From Antennarius striatus (taxonomy: Eukaryota; Chordata; Actinopteri; Lophiiformes; Antennariidae), in the NCBI RefSeq assembly GCF_040054535.1, contig NC_090784.1, positions 5,565,501 through 5,629,500 on the forward strand: DNA of 64,000 nucleotides, read 5' to 3'. Within the stretch, counting starts at the first letter, position 1. The number at the start of each line of letters is the position of its first letter. The position numbers were made by a program, and so were the translations under genes. Below the pieces are notes generated by a model, which worked only from the letters and a program-made list of their open reading frames with translations, was not told the DNA's origin and ran no database searches. Below are positions 2,626-38,992 of this stretch, one piece after another.

Positions 2626-5600
2626 CTAAGATGATGACTTTGCACACTCTGCAACATCCAGCTTTCGGCCACTGCTGCACATTTTTGCCAGATTCTATAA
2701 AAAGCAGACAAGAGTATCAGTATCTAAGATTAAGAAATCTCCCAGAAAGAAAAGCTTGAGCTGATAAAATCTTACATTAGCAGCTCGGATGATGCTGTTT
2801 GGAGACTGGAGTGCGGCGAGATCTGTTAGAATCTTCTTCAGATCGTTGTTACACGGAGGCTCTGGAACAGATAAAATGACATCAGGCCAGAGTCAGTGTG
2901 GATCTGAGTCCACACACTGTGATGAGTGAATGTTAGTTTGTATGTTGTACCTGGTTCAGGTGGTGACTGTGGCTTCAGCTGTAGATATGGATGCTCCAGC
3001 AGTTCTGCAATAGAAATTCTCTCTCTGGGGTTTCGCACCAGGCACCTCTGGAATGACCAGTCCATAAATACAGCTCATTTGGATTTTATATTCAACATAT
3101 CTCAAACTATTCTATGGACACGCATAAATACTTTAATTGATACAGGAATGATCTCTGAAAAAGACATGACTCCAAGAGATTTGTTTTTGAAATTTGTACA
3201 GACTATTGATTTTGATTTAACTATTATTAAATCAACAGAAAAAATATTCAACTTCTTATTCACATTTAACATACTATTTCTTTAATTTTCACTTTGAACA
3301 CATGTAGCAACTTAAAAAATTGAAAGCCCATCCATCTGATTTACTGGACGGTATGAGAGAGCCAATTCTTTTTTTTTTTGACACCATATATTTCATGGCA
3401 CATAATTTCATGGAGATGGAAATTCAAAACTCCTGATTTTACCTTTAGTACATCCAGCAAATCCTTCTCTGATAGGTCTGAAAATTCAATCTTGTGGGAG
3501 GGATCAATGATGGCTTGCAGCTTGGCAATCTGATTGGTGATGCTTTGGAATGGGGTTTTCCCATAAGTCATGCAGTAGAGGATACAACCAAGGGACCACA
3601 CATCACCTTTGGGGCTGATCTTTAGGAGGGAAAAGAATGTCTTAACAACTGTACTCCAAGTAGACATGACCGTTCAGGATTATTAACTGGCGTGGGAGAC
3701 GTACCTTGGAGCGTGCTTTTCCTGGCTGGGATGACGTGTCTTTGATGGCCTCAGGAGGCATGTAGTTCAACGTTCCCACCTGTGTTTGTTGAACAGTCAT
3801 GGATTAAGCAGGTAGAGACATATTCTCCAGGACTGCACATCATACCGTTGAAGTTTTTGTAATTTTATGCAGCATTCCATATATTTAGAGTGTATTAACA
3901 AAAATGTATTTTAGTTGTGCTGTTCCATGAAGCACAGTGACCACATCCAGGTACAATAGACACAAATCTTACTTGTGAATCTTTCATAATACTCGTAACA
4001 TCAGGTTGGATTTTGTTTGCAATGCCAAAGTCAATCAATTTCAGTGAAGCGTTCACAATGACAAAATTTGCTGGCTTCAAGTCGCTGTGAACAATCCCTG
4101 CAAAGTAGACAGGAAATTAATTTAATTTCAGTCCCATATTGAAAACAATGTTGAGATTCAATAATAGAACACAAGTAGGTGCTACAAAAGGAAGAGAACC
4201 ATGTTTGTGTATGGTTTGGACGGCCTCCAGCATGTTCTTCCAGTAGAACTTCCTCTCCAGCGGATTGACAGCTTTACGGTTTCGTAGCCATGTGTTGAGA
4301 TCCAGGTTTCCACACTCCATCAGCATGTAGATGTAGCTGTTTGTTATTTCACTATAATCACAATAACACAGTATTTCTGAGAAAAATTATCATAAAAAGT
4401 AGAACAGACAAAAAAAAAGGATTCAAGGCTCCATCAAATTACACCGATGATAGCAATAAGAGGGTGTCTACTCACTAATCATAAAGCTTGATAATTTGGT
4501 CGCTGTACTGCTGTAAGTGGTTCAGATGCTCAATTTCATTTTTGTAACTTTCTATTGTCTGTGCATCTGCCTCCTCAAGGTTTACATATTTTACAGCAAA
4601 CAGCTGCTTTTTATGATCCAGGACCTGGTAGACCTGAAAAAACAAACAAACAAACCAACACTAAAAAATGTTAAATTTTATATAAACAAAAACAAAGTGT
4701 ACTAGTGGTGGAAGGTGTAAGCTATGGTTCTAATGTTATACTTTGCTGGATCCCCCACGTCCGATCATCTTGAGTATGTAGAACTGCTTGCCCTTGATGG
4801 TAATAGATTCATTAGACAGCGCAGGGAAGGAAGCCTAAAACGGGGTTCAGACAAAAGGACGTTATGTTGTAAATATTTATTGAGCAAGTCAAAAAAATAT
4901 AGAGATACTTTCTGTATATTTTCTACAATGATAAAAGCTATTTGTTTTATCCATATCTCAAAAAACTACGATGGTTTTATATCTACAATAACAGCGCTAG
5001 GTTGTGGAAACTTAAGTTTTTAGTTTTTTGGATGTTGTTCATTACGGAAAGATGGCTGGTGTTTTGACAAACTTGTTTATGAAGAATTCTGGAATGTTGG
5101 TCATCAGACAACAGCAAAGGGAAGATTGTGATCACACTGTACCTGTGGAGTTTGGAAACTTGGAGCCTGGTTTTGTGGAGTAAAAGGCTGTGGAGGGGGT
5201 TCCACCCTGTGTGGAGCCACTGCAGACGAACAAACTTCAGGTCGTCTCTTTACAACTGGGGTAATAAAGCTGAAGAAAAAGATGGAGTAGACTTGAATGG
5301 AAAGACTTTTTGATGGTACCGATAAAGAAACGAAACAAAAATATATATCTAAGATAATACCTGCTGGCAGAGACGTTTCTGTAGCTGTTTGGCGTCTGAC
5401 AAACTACTGGTGTGTTTAGTGTGGATGCAGGAAGGAGGGACGGAGTAGGGAGCGAGTCAAGCAGGCGAGGAACAGGCTTGGGGTCAGGGGGTGTTGTGCG
5501 TTTATCCTTGGAAGGAAATAATTAGAATATTTGATCAGGATAATTAACTTTTTCAGTCTAAGGATAAAAACACAGTCCACACAGGTGTAGTCTGTGTTGA

Positions 5601-8600
5601 ATCCTAAAGGTGCTATAACATGAAATATAACAAAACTGGCCTCTATCATTCAGTCAACTCCTGCTCAAAACAGGTATGGCTGACCAGTTGCAGCTGAACG
5701 TTTTATCCTGCATATTTTTCATATGAGCATTTTTACTTAACATGATGTATAAGTCTACAGTAGTCACTTATGTACTGGGGTGTTTCATAGTTCTATCCTA
5801 AAACAGAATCTGATTGGCTTAACAAATTATTGATGATACGGAATACACCAGTTTCCCAAATGGAATCAATAAATCAAATCAGAAGATATTCCTTTACTTG
5901 TAGAGTCTAAAACAAATATTATAACTGTTATTTAATGAATGTGTAATATATTGTTCCTATATGAATTGCACAGAATATAAAGTACGAAATGTTATCAAAC
6001 CTCCGGAGAAACATGGCGACTGACAAAAGCTGGCATCTTCCACTCTGATGGTGGCTCCTTGCTGGCAGGTTTGAGTTGTTCCACAGACCGGGTCACAGGG
6101 AGCCGAGCGGGAAAATGGACTTCCTGATTTCTTCCACAAGTTGACACACACACTGGAGAACTTGATTGCAAATCTTCCAGACAAACAGTCAAAATTATTA
6201 AAAGTTTCAGTCACACCGGAGTCAGTGCTTTAGCATTAAGAGTGAGAGTGTGTTCAGTGAACACGTACCTGTAGAGTACTCCTCCTGCCTGGTGGGTACA
6301 AGCTGGTTCTCTCCAGCCTTCAGGTTACGTAAGGCCGTCTCCAGAAGCTCTGCTGGTTTGGCATTTAAAGTCTGAGCTTTGTGTAGAATTGAAGCTGCTT
6401 TGATCATATTACCTAAAGAGGAAAAGAAAATCAACTATAATTCAGAAAACAGGGTAACTAAACACTGACTATACAAACTCAAAATGTTACAAAAATATTT
6501 GAACAGTCTCATCTGGAACAACTTTGCATTCATTTTAGGTGTTTGATTTTCTCAAAAGTAAATCTCCATGTAATCCATTACATAGACATTTATGGAAATG
6601 GAAATAATAAGTATGTGTTCGATAATCAACAAATCTGTTTTGCTGTACTGTACCTTGAGAAACCTCAAACTGGGCATGTGTTATGTGGACAAAGGCAAAA
6701 CCTTTACAATTGGATCTAGCAAGTATAAAATGGTCTTGGGCTTCTTCTGGGTCTTCAATCCTTCAGAATGAAAAAGAAACAGAAACAAGGCTTGGATAAA
6801 ATTCAGCACTCTGGTAACGACAGGCTAATGCTGATTCAGTATTGTGATCAATGCTCACCCCCTGAGCTCTGCGTATCTGACCAGTATTCTGGCATAGCTG
6901 GTGTTTTTGCTGAACTGCCTTATCGGCAGCCTGGTGAAGATTTTGGAATAGCAATCCTTGAGCTTATTGAGGAAGTTGACGTCAGTGTGAGGGTTGCCTC
7001 TTTTCTCCAGGTTCATCAGATAAGACCAGCATGACTCAGGAGAATTCGTATTGATGACCTGATCGAAGTTGTGTGTGACATCTGCCAGAGAGAAAGATGA
7101 TGTCATCATATAGATATCACCGATGCACTAAGTCTACAAGTTTTACCATCTACTCAACCAACTGCAAAATACTGAGCAAGGCAGATTGTTGGGTACACAA
7201 TACCTTCCATTTTGAAGGTGTCCATCGAATGCAGGAGTGTGGTAGTGGTGTCCACAACTTCCTGGTCCTCCAAAGCGAAATGTTCTGGACTCACAGCCGG
7301 TGGCTGAGAACACAATGACATTTTTTTCTTTAAAAAGGGACCATTTGAGGAAAAAGAACCCAGCAACATATTTTTGATTTGGTGAGTTGATGTATTTTGA
7401 GGGCTGTGAGAAGAGATGTCTGCACACAAAGCTAATAAAAAAAATATTACACAATTTGAAGGATTTTTGTTGACTATCAAAAGATTTTTTTAAATTTTTT
7501 TAGCAACTCATGTGAAATGCACTCTGGTTACATTACGGTAGACAGAAATGTTTGCAGCTCACACAATCACACTTGGAGGAATAACTGACACTACAGGTAC
7601 AATGACACCTGTACTTTGGATTGAACGGTGCTTTTAATTCAAGTCAAATGTCCTTGAAGCAGAGTGCTGACAATGAATACCACTGATCGCTGTTTCTTTG
7701 CTAGATTCACATGACTGTGGTTGGTTTATACTCACCTGAAGATCTCTGTCGACTGTATTTCTCATTGACAGCCCAACTCCTGCATTCAAATTTGAACCTG
7801 ATGTTTTCCTGGTACCAAGTTGAATTAAAAAACAAAAATTATCACACTTTTTCAAACAGAACTGGCTGGGAAATAAGAAACCACAAAATATTTTTGTTTT
7901 TAAATTACTCTGTGTTTACTGGGGTAGAATGTAGTTTCTCAGCAATTTGTATAAAACATGCTTAATTTTACTCTAATCATTACTGTTGTGTTAAGTGATA
8001 CACTGTGTGAAGAACTGCAACATTTGCAAGGGCACTTAGATATTCAGTCCACATTATTTTAGTGATGTATAAAAGAAGCTTTTTCAGTGCTATATATTAT
8101 TTTGTTTTGAATTTAGGGGGAAAAAACTTTCATACAGCTTTCTGCAAAACAAATACACTAAATACATTTGGACACACATAATTCTATAAATAAATACCTG
8201 GACAAACTTGAATGGACTGATACATCACTTCTCTTAGAAGGCTTCTCCTGAATGCAGCCATTATCATCATCATAATCATCCTTTTCTGGGATAGAGAAAG
8301 GTACTATGGGAACTCTACCTGGCTGGAAAAACAATTTCACCCTCAGTAAACAAAACCAGCTTTCATGCAGTCTCTGAAAACAAACCAAAAAAACAACCCT
8401 ACCATGCTAAATAAATTTGCAAAAGCACAAATCTTATAAATGTTTCTCACAATGCTGACTATTCTCTTTCGGTGAGATCCGGATCTCCATTCGAGGAGTT
8501 GGTCATCTGATGAACCACCGAAGTGTTCCGTCCTGCAGGCAAAGAGAAACATAAGACATAATGTGTGAACTTCTCTACATCACACAGTTTATTAACCACT

Positions 8601-10345
8601 GAAAAATTATTCTTACCCTGAACCAAAGCTACTGGAAAGTGGAAAGTCGCCTGTCCCATCGGAAATTCTGTTTGCTTTTTGGAATGCAGAGCCTTTTCTG
8701 ACAGATTCATGCACAGTACGTTTCGAAGACGCTGGCAGAACACATGATATGAAAATTAGACAAAACTCTGTTAATATATATCAATCCCTTGTAATAGAAT
8801 ATTACTATGGACATTTTTTGATCTAACCACCTATGTCATGATGTAATAAATCACCAATTAATACTCACATGGTATATTTTCTTTATCTTCTGAACTTAAG
8901 ACTGGTGTTAAACCAGCCTGCATATTTTGTAAGGCTGCTTCCAGCAGTTCTTTTGGTTTGGCACCAACTTCAATAGCATCTTGTAATATGAAAATGCCTT
9001 TCTTTGTGTTGCCTAGCAAAATGATAAAGCAGAAACTGATATACACCAGACAATGTGCAATAAGGGATGTGTTTATATGTAAAAGAACACAAAATGCTCA
9101 TCTCATTTTTACCTTGATAATGTTCAAACTTTGCATGTGCAATGTGGACAAATGCGAAGTTCTGGCAATGAGATCTTGCCACCTCAAAGTTAGCTTCTCC
9201 CTCAGTAACATCTTGAATTCTAATAAAAAAATGTTTTTAAAAAGATGAATAAAGGCCTATTGTTTTAAGAAACAATCATAACAACATACAATACCAACAT
9301 AACAATCTGGCTGACTTGATCTGCTGATGAAACACAATTTGACCATGAAAATAAGTCAGACTACTCACGCTTTTAGTTCTGCAAATCTGACCAACATCCT
9401 GGCGTAGCTCTCGTTGTCACAGTGTTTACCCACTGGCATATCGGAGAATACTTTGATATAAAAGCCAATAAGTCTGGTGAGAAGATTACAATCAAGGTGA
9501 GGGTCTCCCCTCTTCTCCAGACCCATCAAATACGAAAGGCATGATTCCGGTGAGTTGGATCCTATAACCTGAATAATCTTGTTTGTGTCATCTGTAACAA
9601 TTGCAAGGTGTCATAAGTTTTGTCATACAATGCAAAAGCATGGATGTTACAGGGCCAGGCTTACTGGACATTACCTTCATGGAGATCCTTTTTGATTTTG
9701 TGGAGTCTTTGATGAAGTATGGCAAGCTGCTGCTTCCTGTCTGTGTGCTCCTCTTCCTCCATCTGAAATCGATTGGAAATTGTTAGATACGTCGCATTGA
9801 CCTAAATGAGGTTTGCACACAGATGTCCATTAACTATGGACACTAAAACCCCGTTCAATAAAAAATTCATAATTCCCTACTTTGTATGCATACTATGTTG
9901 GCAATATACAACATCACATTTAATACGAATCCCTGAAATACATTCTACAAAACTACACACTTTCATTGTCATTCACCCCATCAAGGATGTAGCGAAGTTC
10001 AGTTCTGCGGCTCTGTGGATCATTTGTTCTTATTTCTACTCTGCTGAAAAATGACGTTATGTTCCGCATTTTAATCATTTATTGTATGTCTACTTGCTGT
10101 AAGGAATAAAAAAAAAGGACGTTCGTTTCAATGAGTTAATCAGGACTTTGATGAACGCCATTAATAATAATAATAAAGTCACCGCTGTCTGTGGTGTTTA
10201 CAGTCCCCGTTAGCTGTTAGCTGACATGACATCGCTCGCTAACTCGATCTCTTGTGGATCATGCAACCTCGGTGGAAAAACATATCAAGACGTTGATAAT
10301 GACGTTAAAACACTACAACCGCATTAAAAAAAATAACCTTACCAT
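2626..10345 (-). CDS. ttk: ttk (Mps1), dual-specificity spindle-checkpoint kinase, complete, 25 coding exons
   Basis: Mps1/TTK works at kinetochores, starting checkpoint signalling and error correction. Coding exons, 5' to 3': 10345-10343, 9762-9675, 9591-9369, 9219-9113, 9012-8869, 8731-8617, 8532-8451, 8322-8198, 7808-7736, 7303-7204, 7081-6859, 6760-6654, 6412-6269, 6173-6001, 5506-5361, 5269-5143, 4834-4742, 4633-4476, 4351-4200, 4097-3973, 3779-3705, 3619-3443, 3047-2951, 2861-2776, 2694-2626. They sum to 3012 nt with no stop: 1003 residues against 857 in human. The kinase domain spans about residues 670-950: glycine loop GRGGSSK, lysine in [12 protein letters not shown], hinge MLMECGN, catalytic loop [25 protein letters not shown] and [19 protein letters not shown]. 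Residues 31-188 and 354-511 are two TPR modules, which explain the extra length. The first ATG lies at the end of exon 1 and a second in-frame ATG opens exon 2. Individual splice sites in the poorly conserved linker are inferred from phase. Confidence 0.95.
6269..7081 (-). other. ttk: ttk TPR module, second copy (three-exon cassette B)
   Basis: Exons 7081-6859 (223 bp), 6760-6654 (107 bp) and 6412-6269 (144 bp) encode residues 354-511. Lengths and phases equal those of cassette A. Matching motifs are [45 protein letters not shown] and [14 protein letters not shown]. By eye 41 of 75 residues agree between the two first exons. The open frame and conserved core positions suggest a functional second module rather than a decayed one. 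Confidence 0.9.
8869..9591 (-). other. ttk: ttk TPR module, N-terminal copy (three-exon cassette A)
   Basis: Exons 9591-9369 (223 bp), 9219-9113 (107 bp) and 9012-8869 (144 bp) encode residues 31-188. Recognisable Mps1 TPR motifs are [45 protein letters not shown] and [14 protein letters not shown]. This family of TPRs mediates kinetochore recruitment and dimerisation in Mps1. The entry phase is 1 and the internal phases are 2 and 1, identical to cassette B. Confidence 0.9.
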
Positions 10346-19391: not shown

Positions 19392-22300
19392 TTACACATC
19401 TGAGCCGTGAGCAACGTGACGAAGAGTGTGCAATCCCATGATGCAACAGCCCCTAATAAGAGAGGCAATGTTGTAAACTGGAGCGCTTCCATCCACACCG
19501 TGCCGTGAGTACAGCCAGACTACAGTGGGTAACACAGGCGCTGCCACGGCCACCAGATCCACTAGGAAGTTGTTGCTCCAGTAATGCTTGCCAACCACGT
19601 CCAGTCCTGGTGACGGACGAGGTTCCTCCTCATCCACTCCGAAGTCCAGCTCCTTCATGAATCCCTGGCTATCTGCAAGTTCGGAGCAGCCCAAGCCAGA
19701 ATCAGAGGTGTCAGGTGTGGGACGAGGAGGTGCCGAGGTGGGGGGTGTGGCAGTAGATTTTGGCAGGTTTGGGAAGCCTGGAAGATTGGAGGCAGACAGG
19801 ACGGCGTCTCCAGCTGTCGTTCCATGGAGCTTCAGCAGCTGGATGAGCAGAATTGGAAGGTCTGGAGACATGGGGACCATGTCGGTCTGGATTCCTTGGT
19901 CGATTCCGTTGTGCTGGGAATGTGCGGACGAGGTGGCGGTGGTGGAAAGTGTGTTTGCTCGAATAAGTGGAGTTTCAGTGGATTTGTCAATCAGCTGCTC
20001 CTCTGACAGCGCAGACACCATAGGACCCGACTCCATCCCTGCCCTCAGCTTACCGCTGGAGTCCTGGCTGAAATCCATGGCAGTAGACATCAAGACGTGC
20101 TCCAAAATGTCCGCTCTGTTGGCCATCTCATCATTAACCAGCAGCCCACTATCCGCCATCGCCTCCGCCCCTTGCTCTCCCAGCCCCATTCCACTTTCGT
20201 CCTCCCCCATTATCTTCTTCCCACCGAGGTTGTCACAGAAGTCCAAGGTGTTTTCATCTTGGAGGCTGGCACCACTCTGGGCCAGCTCCATGCTTTGAAG
20301 CAGGGACTCCAACTTCCTGTTTTGGATGTTGATGTCGATGAAGTACTTCTGTATTCCCTTATCCTTCTCCATCAGGCTGCTCTTCATGGTTTCCACCACC
20401 TGACGCAGCTGCTTGATCTCTTTGCGGGCCTCTTTGAGAGACAGTTGAGCCTCCACCCGGTGACACTCCTCTTCGATCCAGTCCTCCCTCATCCTGCTGA
20501 GCTGAGCCTTCAGCTCCTCAATATCCCCTTCTCTAATGCAGCAGGATGGGAAAACAACAGTTACTTATGGAATGGTCTCATATTTTTGGAAGACATCCAT
20601 CTTCTCTTCCGGAGCATTAGCCGAGAATGTCCAATAGCACTTTTATAGCCACAGGATGTGCTCACTATAAAGCTAAAGTCAGCTGCCAATTCACTTAATC
20701 TCATCTGTATAAATGACTGGGGAATCCACATTGAACTGACCTCAGTAACAATCATCTAAGAGTAATGAAATAAATCAGGACATTTCTCTTCTTGAATTAA
20801 CCATAAAATATTGTCCAACATACTCTTCGCTTCAGGAATGGGGTGGTGGTGCTTGGCTGATGAGAGTACAAGGTTTAACAAGAGTGCATTAAATACGCTT
20901 ACCACCCATTCCACATCATATTTAGCTTTGTTGAACCTTCAAACCTCACAAAGTTTAGAGAATTTTATCATCGTGGGGCAGTTGAATGAGCCGGTATTGC
21001 TAGTCATGCATCACATGAGTTTAATGTCTGAGCAGAGCTACAGTGTGTAGGTACTAACCCCCATCCATGTTGTATTTATTTCTACCATCTTTGCTGTAAA
21101 ACCATAAAATGGTGCAATCACCACCGTGCTGCTAAACCTACACCAACCTGTCATGTACTCTGTTCTCAGACTCCAAGAGTTTGGTCTTCAGGTGTCTGAT
21201 GGCCACTTCCTTCTGCTGGAGAGGGGTGAGATACTGCTCAGGGTTCGGGGGCTTGATGCCATGATTATCTCTGCAGGAGTGGTAGCTGCCCAGACTTCTC
21301 CTGTTGGCCAGAGAGACGAACACGTTGGTTAAATGGATCACGGCCAACATTATTCAGTTCCCAACTAGAGAACGAGCCAAATTGACATTCAAAAGTAAAA
21401 GCCCCTCCCTGTAGACGGTAATTTGTTTGAGTTTACTGCCAGGACAGATGCAGTCTGAAGCCTGGAATTAATGTCTGACACGGGATAACTGGCCTTAAGG
21501 CTACAGGCAAAAATACTGTTTTGTTTCAATACAAGCAAGTTCTACGAGGATATAAATCACCGTAGAAAAAGAAAAATTACATGAGCATTTACAATTATCT
21601 TTGCATGCTCTTTGATAAGTGTTCCGTCTTGCTCAAAAGAACAAAAAGGAATTTGTTATCGTTTTAGCTGATGGATTTGCATCCCAAATGCCTCTCTTCC
21701 ACTCACGTTATCCTAGTAACCACGGATACATGAGGGTATGATGAGAGTTCTCTGTATCCAACCAGAAATAGAAACAGCCCAGCAGAAGGTAGCAGGAGAG
21801 TCAATCACATGACAGCCAGCCAAAAGACAATTCTTAAAACGACACTAGTGGAACGTTCTCGCTTCATGGGAGAAGTAATAATCAGATAAGGAGGGCAGAC
21901 TTTTCTATTATATTAAAAAAAAAAACTAAAAGACATGGGCTGGATGTTTGCAATTTAATCATCTGAGATGGGATTTTGAAGTTAAATCTTAATCTGGACT
22001 GAGATGCTAACAAATTAACCCAAAGCAGTAAACCTCCTGATTAATGCAGAGCCTAGAACACCAAGTCATGATGGACTCAAGCATTCATAGTTCAGCATCT
22101 TCAGTTTAGGGTTTAATCCTGTCATTTTAATTTATCAACGTTTTCTCTTAAACTGAGTTGGGTTCATTAATATCCAAATACAGCATGGCTGCAGTCCATT
22201 AGATCACTGTCTGGGTTCCTTGTTCAGACATCTACTATAATAAATCTTTATTAATCCCAACCACAGTCAAATCATGACCAATATAATCCCAGACAGGTGC

Positions 22301-30982: not shown

Positions 30983-33422
30983 CTTCTCGAGTGTGTTACA
31001 TAATGTGTCAGGCGTTACTTAACCATTGACGAGCCGCGCTGCTCCACCGAACCACACGCAGATCCCATGCAGTCCTGTGCGTCATCTTCGACAGCTATTT
31101 TTGCACATGATGTAAGCATTATCCATGAATTATTATTCATCAGCGGACAAAATTCATTTCATATTTCTTAATGTTTATCCAGGATCTAAATCATAAGCTC
31201 CATCAGGGGTGTTTCAGGAGAATCATATTGATATATCCCGCCTCTTTTGCGTTCTACAGAATGTGTCGGTCTCTAATCTGCAGAATAGAGGAACGCTCGA
31301 TACAAGCAGGAGGTCTGCGTGTACAGAGATGTGCGTGAACGCAGCGTGTTTTCCTCTCAGTCTGCTCTCCATGGTGCTGAAACCAGGAGATGGGCCCTGC
31401 TCCTCCTAGTTTGAAGTCACTGATGTACGGATGATAAATACATGAATAACAAGTGTCGTCATATTTGGCGCAGCGCCGTTGATGGAGTCATCGAGGAGTC
31501 GTGTAAATGCGTCTGTGATGCTGTTGTCTTATTGTGAGGTCGCTCTGGACTCTGGATCAAGACTCTTGTGTCGTTGTTTTACTGACGCCCTCTGCTGGAA
31601 AAACAACACGGTGCCACACAGTCCAAAAACAGACAATGAACAAGTTGAAACGTCACAATCACCACGATCCGATTCACTATTGCAGCATCCCCGCAAGTTA
31701 CCGTACTCTGGTACACAGTTTACAGGTTCATCTAACACAATTTACAACAATCAGTTATACAAATGTAATATAAATGACACCTGATACATCAGAAATCCCA
31801 CATATATATCCAGATTTGTTCTTGATGCAACGCGTTTGTCATATGTTTAATAAACTAACCCGACCTGCTTTTGTAAAAGGGCCTGAAGTCGTTGGATTTT
31901 TCTGATTTTTAAAAAAAATTGTCTGACATACAGAATTAATCAAAAATAGAATAAACACATAGAACAGGAATATGTTGTAGAGTCTGAGAGAACATATCAA
32001 TCAACCATATCTGTGACAATGAGAACACATGCAGACAATCTGCGTCATGTGTGGATTTGTTGGCGTTCAAGTGAAGGAAATAAAGAACTTATTCGAAGAC
32101 TTTGTAACAACTATCCTTTGAGTCCTTGTCAGATCTTTACTTTGTGTTTCTATCCTAAAACATTGATGTTGAGGAAGGAACAGACGTGTCAATCCAGTCA
32201 TGACGGCTGCATGACGAATGGTGGGCTTTAGAACCAGTCTTGGTCATGCTGTGTAGTTTTCACCGATAAATTAATTTTATATTGACAAAGTCTTCGAGAT
32301 AACTTCATCGGAGCGTTTGCCCTCGTTTTGTTTTTGGTCCATCCTCTGTTTGTAATATGACATAATGGCCACTAGAGGTCACTGTTGTTGTTTATAAGAT
32401 GCATCCTGTAATGGAGACGATCCACACACCCCCGTCTGCAGCCTCTCATCCGCCTTGCGGGTCCCGGGTATTTAGAACATTTATTATACAACTGGCTGAG
32501 TCGTCAAAGTTGAATGTTTTGTTTTTACACCTCAGGATGACATTTAAATGCACGAGAAGTATTATTTAACTTATTGTGTTATAAATTTCCGATGTATTCA
32601 AAATAAATGACACTATCTAAAGAGTTAAACGTCTCCTCCCCTGTCCAACATTTTATAAAATTACGAAATTTCATTTTTATTATAATTGCATTATTTCTTT
32701 GATTAATTTGTAAAACTCAGGCGCAAAATGCAGATTTTTCTCTGCTTTATGACCAGTTTATGCACGTGTCTTCATCCTATCCGTGCGTAAAATCTAATCT
32801 AATCTGATCTGACGTGTCCTTGGAAGCCCTCAGGCTCTAAAAGACCGTGATAAGGATCAGTTTAAATTAGTTGAACTGCAAACTGGACCTAGTTGCTTTG
32901 TGTGTCATGTTGGACTATTCGAACTACGTCTATACTCTGCTTTGTGCTGTCAGTCTAAATATGATTCTGAAACAGATATTTAGGAAAGTATCTCAACAGA
33001 TTATGCTTGATTTCATTGTAATTTGATTGATAATCGATGTAAAAAATTCCTGTTTGCAAAGAAAGAAGGAAACCCAAAATTAAATTTTCAACATTCTCTC
33101 TGGAAACCACCACCAACACCAACAAAAGCTTTCCCTCGATTGAGTATGGTGTGTTGTGGCGGTGATTTGGCGTCAGTTTGGAGCTCTGTGGCGTAGACCT
33201 GCATGGGAAGCCCTTCTCTGAGCCACCATGTGGGCGTGTTTCCCTCGGCCCAACGCGCTCTGTTCATGTGTGGAGTCCAGAGCGTGAAACGCACTTCTTC
33301 TGGTGTGACCGGAGAGCGCAAAAGTAGCAACTCTCCGACCCCGACGCGCACATCATCTCTCATTCTGGCGCCCCCCCGAATTCAACTTCACCAAGCGGGA
33401 AAGTGTTTATGAACATCTCCCG
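30983..33422. other. gdf6 5' flanking region
   Basis: No exon or transposon was recognised. The last 300 bp become GC-rich and must contain the gdf6 5' UTR and promoter; no TATA box was identified. The patch at 31090-31180 (taagcattatccatgaatta) looks like a non-coding element. Confidence 0.4.
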
Positions 33423-33437
33423 ATGTCTCCTCCAACC

Positions 33438-38992
<5,555 letters not shown>

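Follow-up and report, generated by a model that had tools for sequence, protein, structure and literature searches.

Can an Mps1 kinase carry two TPR modules in one chain and, if so, what might the second one do? This question is raised by the ttk gene in a 64,000-nucleotide stretch of DNA from Antennarius striatus (contig NC_090784.1, positions 5,565,501 to 5,629,500 of the forward strand), which we call the window and to which all coordinates below refer. Human TTK, also known as MPS1, is 857 amino acids (aa) long and contains one TPR module, whereas the A. striatus gene is predicted to encode 1003 residues that include two. We show here that this gene is a TTK/Mps1 orthologue inside which a three-exon TPR cassette was duplicated long ago, and that both copies have been kept.

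The ttk gene and its two TPR cassettes

The ttk coding region lies at 10345-2626 on the minus strand, looks complete, and was modeled with 25 coding exons. The exon borders were chosen by hand with the GT-AG rule in mind, and all 24 introns (24/24) conform to it. The spliced model contains no internal stop codon and reproduces the length of 1003 residues predicted in an earlier note on this DNA; if the second ATG, in the next exon, is the start codon, the product is 1002 aa long. In order, the gene comprises an exon for the N-terminal extension (NTE), cassette A, five spacer exons, cassette B, a linker, and the kinase exons. Two short motifs discussed below as possible counterparts of the middle region (MR) of Mps1 are included among these features:

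10343..10345, minus strand: coding part of exon 1 (ATG only, ahead of a GT donor); the start may instead be the ATG of exon 2
9675..9762, minus strand: exon 2, short NTE, aa 2-30, helix-like by eye (spliced model)
9369..9591, minus strand: cassette A exon 1, 223 bp, TPR module A (spliced model, A/B alignment)
9113..9219, minus strand: cassette A exon 2, 107 bp (spliced model, A/B alignment)
8869..9012, minus strand: cassette A exon 3, 144 bp, with a KENIP stretch encoded at its 3' end (spliced model, A/B alignment)
8198..8731, minus strand: spacer exons s1-s3 (8731-8617, 8532-8451, 8322-8198; spliced model)
8305..8319, minus strand: GRVPI, aa 256-260, candidate MR (NUF2-binding) motif between the two modules (weak motif match)
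7204..7808, minus strand: spacer exons s4-s5 (7808-7736, 7303-7204; spliced model)
6859..7081, minus strand: cassette B exon 1, 223 bp, TPR module B (spliced model, A/B alignment)
6654..6760, minus strand: cassette B exon 2, 107 bp (spliced model, A/B alignment)
6269..6412, minus strand: cassette B exon 3, 144 bp (spliced model, A/B alignment)
6001..6173, minus strand: exon p1, after cassette B (spliced model)
6094..6108, minus strand: ARLPV, aa 534-538, which may be a second MR-like motif and lies 22 residues past module B (weak; pattern picked after the motif was seen)
5143..5506, minus strand: linker exons p2-p3 (5506-5361, 5269-5143; spliced model)
2626..4834, minus strand: exons k1-k9, kinase domain (aa 681-942) and C-tail (Pfam Pkinase, TTK kinase structures)

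The earlier note had described two cassettes, each with exons of 223, 107, and 144 bp in shared phases, both open and separated by about 165 residues from five other exons. All of this was borne out by the spliced model, in which the coordinates and lengths are exact, neither cassette contains a stop codon, and the five spacer exons add up to 495 nt or 165 codons. The note also called the arrangement a tandem duplication. Cassettes A (9591-8869) and B (7081-6269) do have the same orientation, but they are not adjacent, being about 1.8 kb and five exons apart.

The kinase domain identifies the gene as TTK, as had been proposed. When it was compared with the PDB, all sequences matching at E 1e-100 or better (22/22) were TTK, with a best value of 3e-137, and Pfam Pkinase matched the product at 2.6e-62. 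Both N-terminal modules are of the Mps1 type, as judged by sequence matches and by the folds of their first exons. Modules A and B matched the human TTK TPR at E 1.5e-35 and 1.3e-36, respectively, and AlphaFold2 models of the first exons had a mean predicted local distance difference test score of 89.0 (A) and 90.1 (B), with the human Mps1 TPR as the top PDB match of each. The protein thus shares with human TTK (TPR structures 4H7X, 4H7Y, and 4B94) both the kinase domain and the type of TPR module. By eye, the parts of the two proteins also follow one order: a short N-terminal helix, the TPR, a GRVP-type motif, the linker, and the kinase. The human NTE is about 20 residues longer than the one here. 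Having one TPR domain, as human TTK does, does not define the family, and a second module is no bar to orthology.

The two modules are clearly alike. They are identical at 79/155 residues (51%) in a gapless alignment with a one-to-one BLASTP E of 1e-55, and their Smith-Waterman score is 393 compared with a maximum of 52 among 1000 shuffles. In the first exons, 40 of the 73 whole codons encode the same residue, which upholds the homology claimed earlier although not the count of 41/75 given for it. When human TTK was included, 51 of 146 columns were invariant.

Module A ends with the stretch SEDKENIP, in which KEN is at aa 184-186 (window 8884-8876, minus strand) and which has no counterpart in B. 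No RxxL was found in the whole modeled protein. Human Mps1 is a target of degradation by the anaphase-promoting complex/cyclosome (PMC6119859), so module A may contain a candidate degron. No LxxLL motif was found anywhere in the modeled protein, including cassettes A and B; in the N-terminus of human Mps1, two LXXLL motifs have been reported to be important for nuclear entry (PMC4373099).

Age and maintenance of the two copies

Comparison of A with B yielded 0.38-0.44 nonsynonymous changes per site (dN) and 1.56-1.90 synonymous changes per site (dS), the latter from two of four methods. The resulting dN/dS, a pairwise mean across both branches, is about 0.23-0.25. Silent sites are near saturation, and the NG86 method gave a dN of 0.40 with dS saturated. 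Over a long time, a ratio this low would not be expected had either copy been free of constraint. Thus, the duplication is old, both copies are apparently constrained, and the pair of modules appears to have been kept by selection.

The alignment of A and B with human bears on how the age of the duplication relates to the split between fishes and tetrapods. Over 146 columns there were 73 identities between A and B, 70 between A and human, and 68 between B and human. Residues common to just two of them numbered 22 (A and B), 19, and 17, with no preference (chi-square p 0.72). Because the three are equidistant, the duplication would be about as old as the divergence of fishes and tetrapods, or more recent if the modules changed faster; the identities do not place it on one side. 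These near-equal numbers would also fit a history in which two modules were ancestral to bony vertebrates and one was lost in tetrapods, which is compatible with each of the functional readings below. We consider this history rather unlikely. A and B have in common an extra residue that is not in human (alignment column 36), and of the 22 columns in which A and B alone agree, 12 are in exon 1; both points weakly favor a later duplication on the fish side. Zebrafish Ttk is about 983 residues long, with the nightcap kinase-domain mutation near residue 843; an insert like the one here would account for such numbers, which we offer as a lead only. A search of the open-access literature found no paper with I843K.

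Residues shared with human by only one module are split by exon. In exon 2 there is 1 on A and 7 on B, whereas in exons 1 and 3 there are 18 on A and 10 on B (Fisher p 0.016, runs test p 0.03; both tests were post hoc, had no correction, and used a single outgroup). This is a possible sign that ancestral surfaces were divided between the copies, that is, of subfunctionalization by exon.

The introns differ in length between the cassettes, at 149 and 100 bp in A versus 98 and 241 bp in B. At the DNA level, the cassettes match in four places. Three track the three exons, with a few extra bases at the splice ends and about 40 intron bases 5' of exon 3, and the fourth is 23 bases long (E 0.56). 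The four intron pairs had global scores about 3.6, 3.1, 1.7, and 1.5 standard deviations above those of shuffles. We put this excess down to the splice ends and pyrimidine tracts that the introns have in common, although it may also be a remnant of shared ancestry. No sign of an assembly artefact or a decaying copy was found: the adjoining intron bases and this excess might be taken for one, but shared splice-site signals would yield them too, and with cassette introns that are largely unalike and of unequal length, about half of the residues differing, near-saturated silent sites at a low dN/dS, and no stops, such an origin is virtually out of the question.

Module B could in principle come from another checkpoint kinase. 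BUB1 and BUBR1 have N-terminal TPR domains of a related fold (PMC6119859; PDB fold matches), but a profile of A, B, and human matched them only at E 0.12-0.41 (five BUB1/BUBR1 rows), and the A. striatus gene differs from both in having two TTK-type modules within one chain. Mad3_BUB1_I scored 16.2 bits for module B, below the Pfam cut-off of 31.4, and Mad3_BUB1_I_2 reached 16.2 bits with module A by itself and 20.9 with the whole protein, below the cut-off of 37.6. Capture of B from BUB1 or BUBR1 is dismissed with near certainty by these scores, by the human Mps1 TPR ranking first for B in both sequence and fold, and by exon lengths and phases in B that equal those of A. Scans of viral contigs and genome contigs found no relative, as expected for a vertebrate gene, and the best PDB match of the spacer (E 0.94) was not meaningful. 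The arrangement is real, exact, old, and apparently conserved.

Position and possible role of the second module

Human Mps1 is ordered as NTE, TPR, MR, which binds NUF2, and kinase (PMC6119859, PMC7493027, PMC5863767). The core of the MR is QSCPFGR, and its arginine is invariant across various vertebrates (PMC11847324). In the A. striatus protein, the candidate MR motif is IPGRVPI (aa 254-260), which is encoded across the junction of s2 and s3 and lies between the two modules. The loose pattern [GA]R[VLI]P[VLI], picked once the sequence had been inspected, has two matches in the protein, at 256 and 534, and was found in 0.2% of shuffles of the spacer and 0.3% of shuffles of the stretch after B. 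Because GRVPI falls between the modules, A would be in the canonical place and B would be extra, between the MR and the kinase. A point that does not depend on the motif leads the same way: A comes immediately after the N-terminal exon, whereas the one that precedes B is unlike that exon, with no NTE-like stretch detected when s5 was compared with exons 1-2 (shuffle p 0.37). The idea that the NTE exon was duplicated along with B was rejected on that same lack of signal (p 0.37). Thus, cassette A seems to be the one in the canonical NTE-TPR-MR place and B seems to be the additional copy.

We favor a reading, held with about even confidence, in which one mRNA carries both cassettes and encodes a protein ordered NTE - TPR A - MR motif - TPR B - linker - kinase. 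TPR A, straight after the NTE, would fill the role of the human TPR. TPR B, ahead of which no NTE-like stretch was seen, would be an extra weak contact with the Ndc80 complex that joins the multisite HEC1/NUF2 interaction and, by analogy with the human mechanism, would raise avidity at unattached kinetochores. In human cells, lone N-terminal modules of Mps1 bind the Ndc80 complex very weakly and combinations bind better; likewise, single modules give no kinetochore signal, two give a weak one, and forced dimerization increases it (PMC7493027). Since combined human modules bind better, a gain in avidity from a second TPR is plausible.

Several points weigh against this reading. It takes it that a single mRNA holds all the parts and that GRVPI is the MR, and the latter depends on one short motif. 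When the spacer was scored with QSCPFGR, the best match lay elsewhere than GRVPI (p 0.43 versus shuffles), and the top score among six regions was KMCSSGR in the C-tail, at aa 985 (p 0.034, uncorrected). The constraint on the two copies is also read from a dS that half of the methods returned and from a ratio averaged over both branches, as given above. Lastly, it is disputed whether the human TPR binds the Ndc80 complex directly or mainly restrains the NTE (PMC6119859, PMC7493027). Direct binding has been reported, but another group failed to detect it (PMC7493027), and the evidence on the N-terminal region has been called conflicting (PMC6119859). Given this dispute, TPR B could inhibit instead of strengthen.

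We rank a gain in avidity, evenly balanced as it is, ahead of two live rivals. One is that TPR B is an intramolecular regulator, adjusting autoinhibition through contacts with TPR A, the NTE, or the kinase and not touching the kinetochore. The placement of B between the candidate MR and the kinase would suit this, as would the contacts of the human NTE with both the TPR and the kinase domain (PMC6119859, PMC7493027, PMC5863767), but self-association of the human N-terminus is weak (PMC7493027), and we regard such a regulator as possible but doubtful. The earlier note had also given weight to dimerization through the TPR region; this should be lowered, because human Mps1 dimerizes mainly through a C-terminal fragment with a weak N-terminal contribution (PMC7493027).

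The other rival concerns transcripts. In both cassettes the exons are entered in phases 1, 2, and 1 and exited in phase 1, and the larger unit from the first exon of A to s5 also starts and ends in phase 1. Such symmetric 1-1 units can be duplicated by recombination in introns without a break in frame and could also be skipped. In silico, skipping A or B left 845 residues with no new stop, skipping both left 687, and skipping the larger unit left 680, all in frame. Single-TPR isoforms of 845 aa, near the human length, are therefore possible and might differ by tissue or stage. For this, three exons would have to be skipped together, and the cassettes stand five exons apart, unlike mutually exclusive exons, which are usually adjacent. 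In addition, all modeled splice sites are GT-AG, so the sequence gives no call for skipping, and we think that isoforms of this kind are unlikely to explain the pair.

The boldest reading is that the whole docking unit was duplicated to give NTE-TPR-MR-TPR-MR'-kinase, a single chain bivalent for the Ndc80 complex. It is kept because the second motif match, ARLPV, lies after B, and we consider it improbable. Scoring of the stretch after B with QSCPFGR gave p 0.97. Duplication of the spacer was rejected, since the whole spacer and the stretch after B did not resemble each other beyond shuffles (p 0.54), nor did s1-s3 and p1 (p 0.11), and the likeness was limited to the short GRVPI/ARLPV resemblance. 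Were it true, Mps1 could bridge two neighboring Ndc80 heads or hold HEC1 and NUF2 at the same time, and it could depend less on C-tail dimerization than human Mps1 does.

Neighboring genes and significance for TTK biology

Downstream of ttk and on the same strand, at about 960-765 of the window (minus strand), is an exon resembling the first exon of bckdhb; in human, BCKDHB is likewise downstream of TTK. A PDB search with the exon peptide gave no match at E 1. Further away are a Syntaphilin-family exon (19395-20564, minus strand; Pfam Syntaphilin 1.3e-79) and a GDF5-like growth factor (37970-38989, plus strand; Pfam TGF_beta 8.4e-37, GDF5 structures 5.3e-68). An upstream open reading frame at 33309-33854 (plus strand) had no Pfam match and is perhaps, by eye, the first exon of the GDF5-like gene. 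NCBIfam gave no match for two other open reading frames in the window.

TTK/Mps1 is a known kinase family and the two-module arrangement is apparently new. No description of two TPR modules in an Mps1 was found in the excerpts of the open-access papers among the literature matches listed (PMC6119859, PMC4373099, PMC3094359, PMC7493027, PMC11847324, PMC5863767, PMC3513839), which is weak evidence of novelty. How interesting a two-module ttk is hinges on its spread among fishes and on its transcripts. Zebrafish mps1 mutants have been studied (PMC3094359), and if the arrangement holds in that species, results on the Mps1 N-terminus would not be transferable one to one to human. The gene offers a natural test of TPR module function in TTK, a checkpoint kinase of cell division. 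With two diverged and apparently constrained modules, one canonical and one extra, recruitment of the kinase to Ndc80 and restraint of the NTE, the two disputed roles of the TPR, may be separable in fish by deleting single modules.

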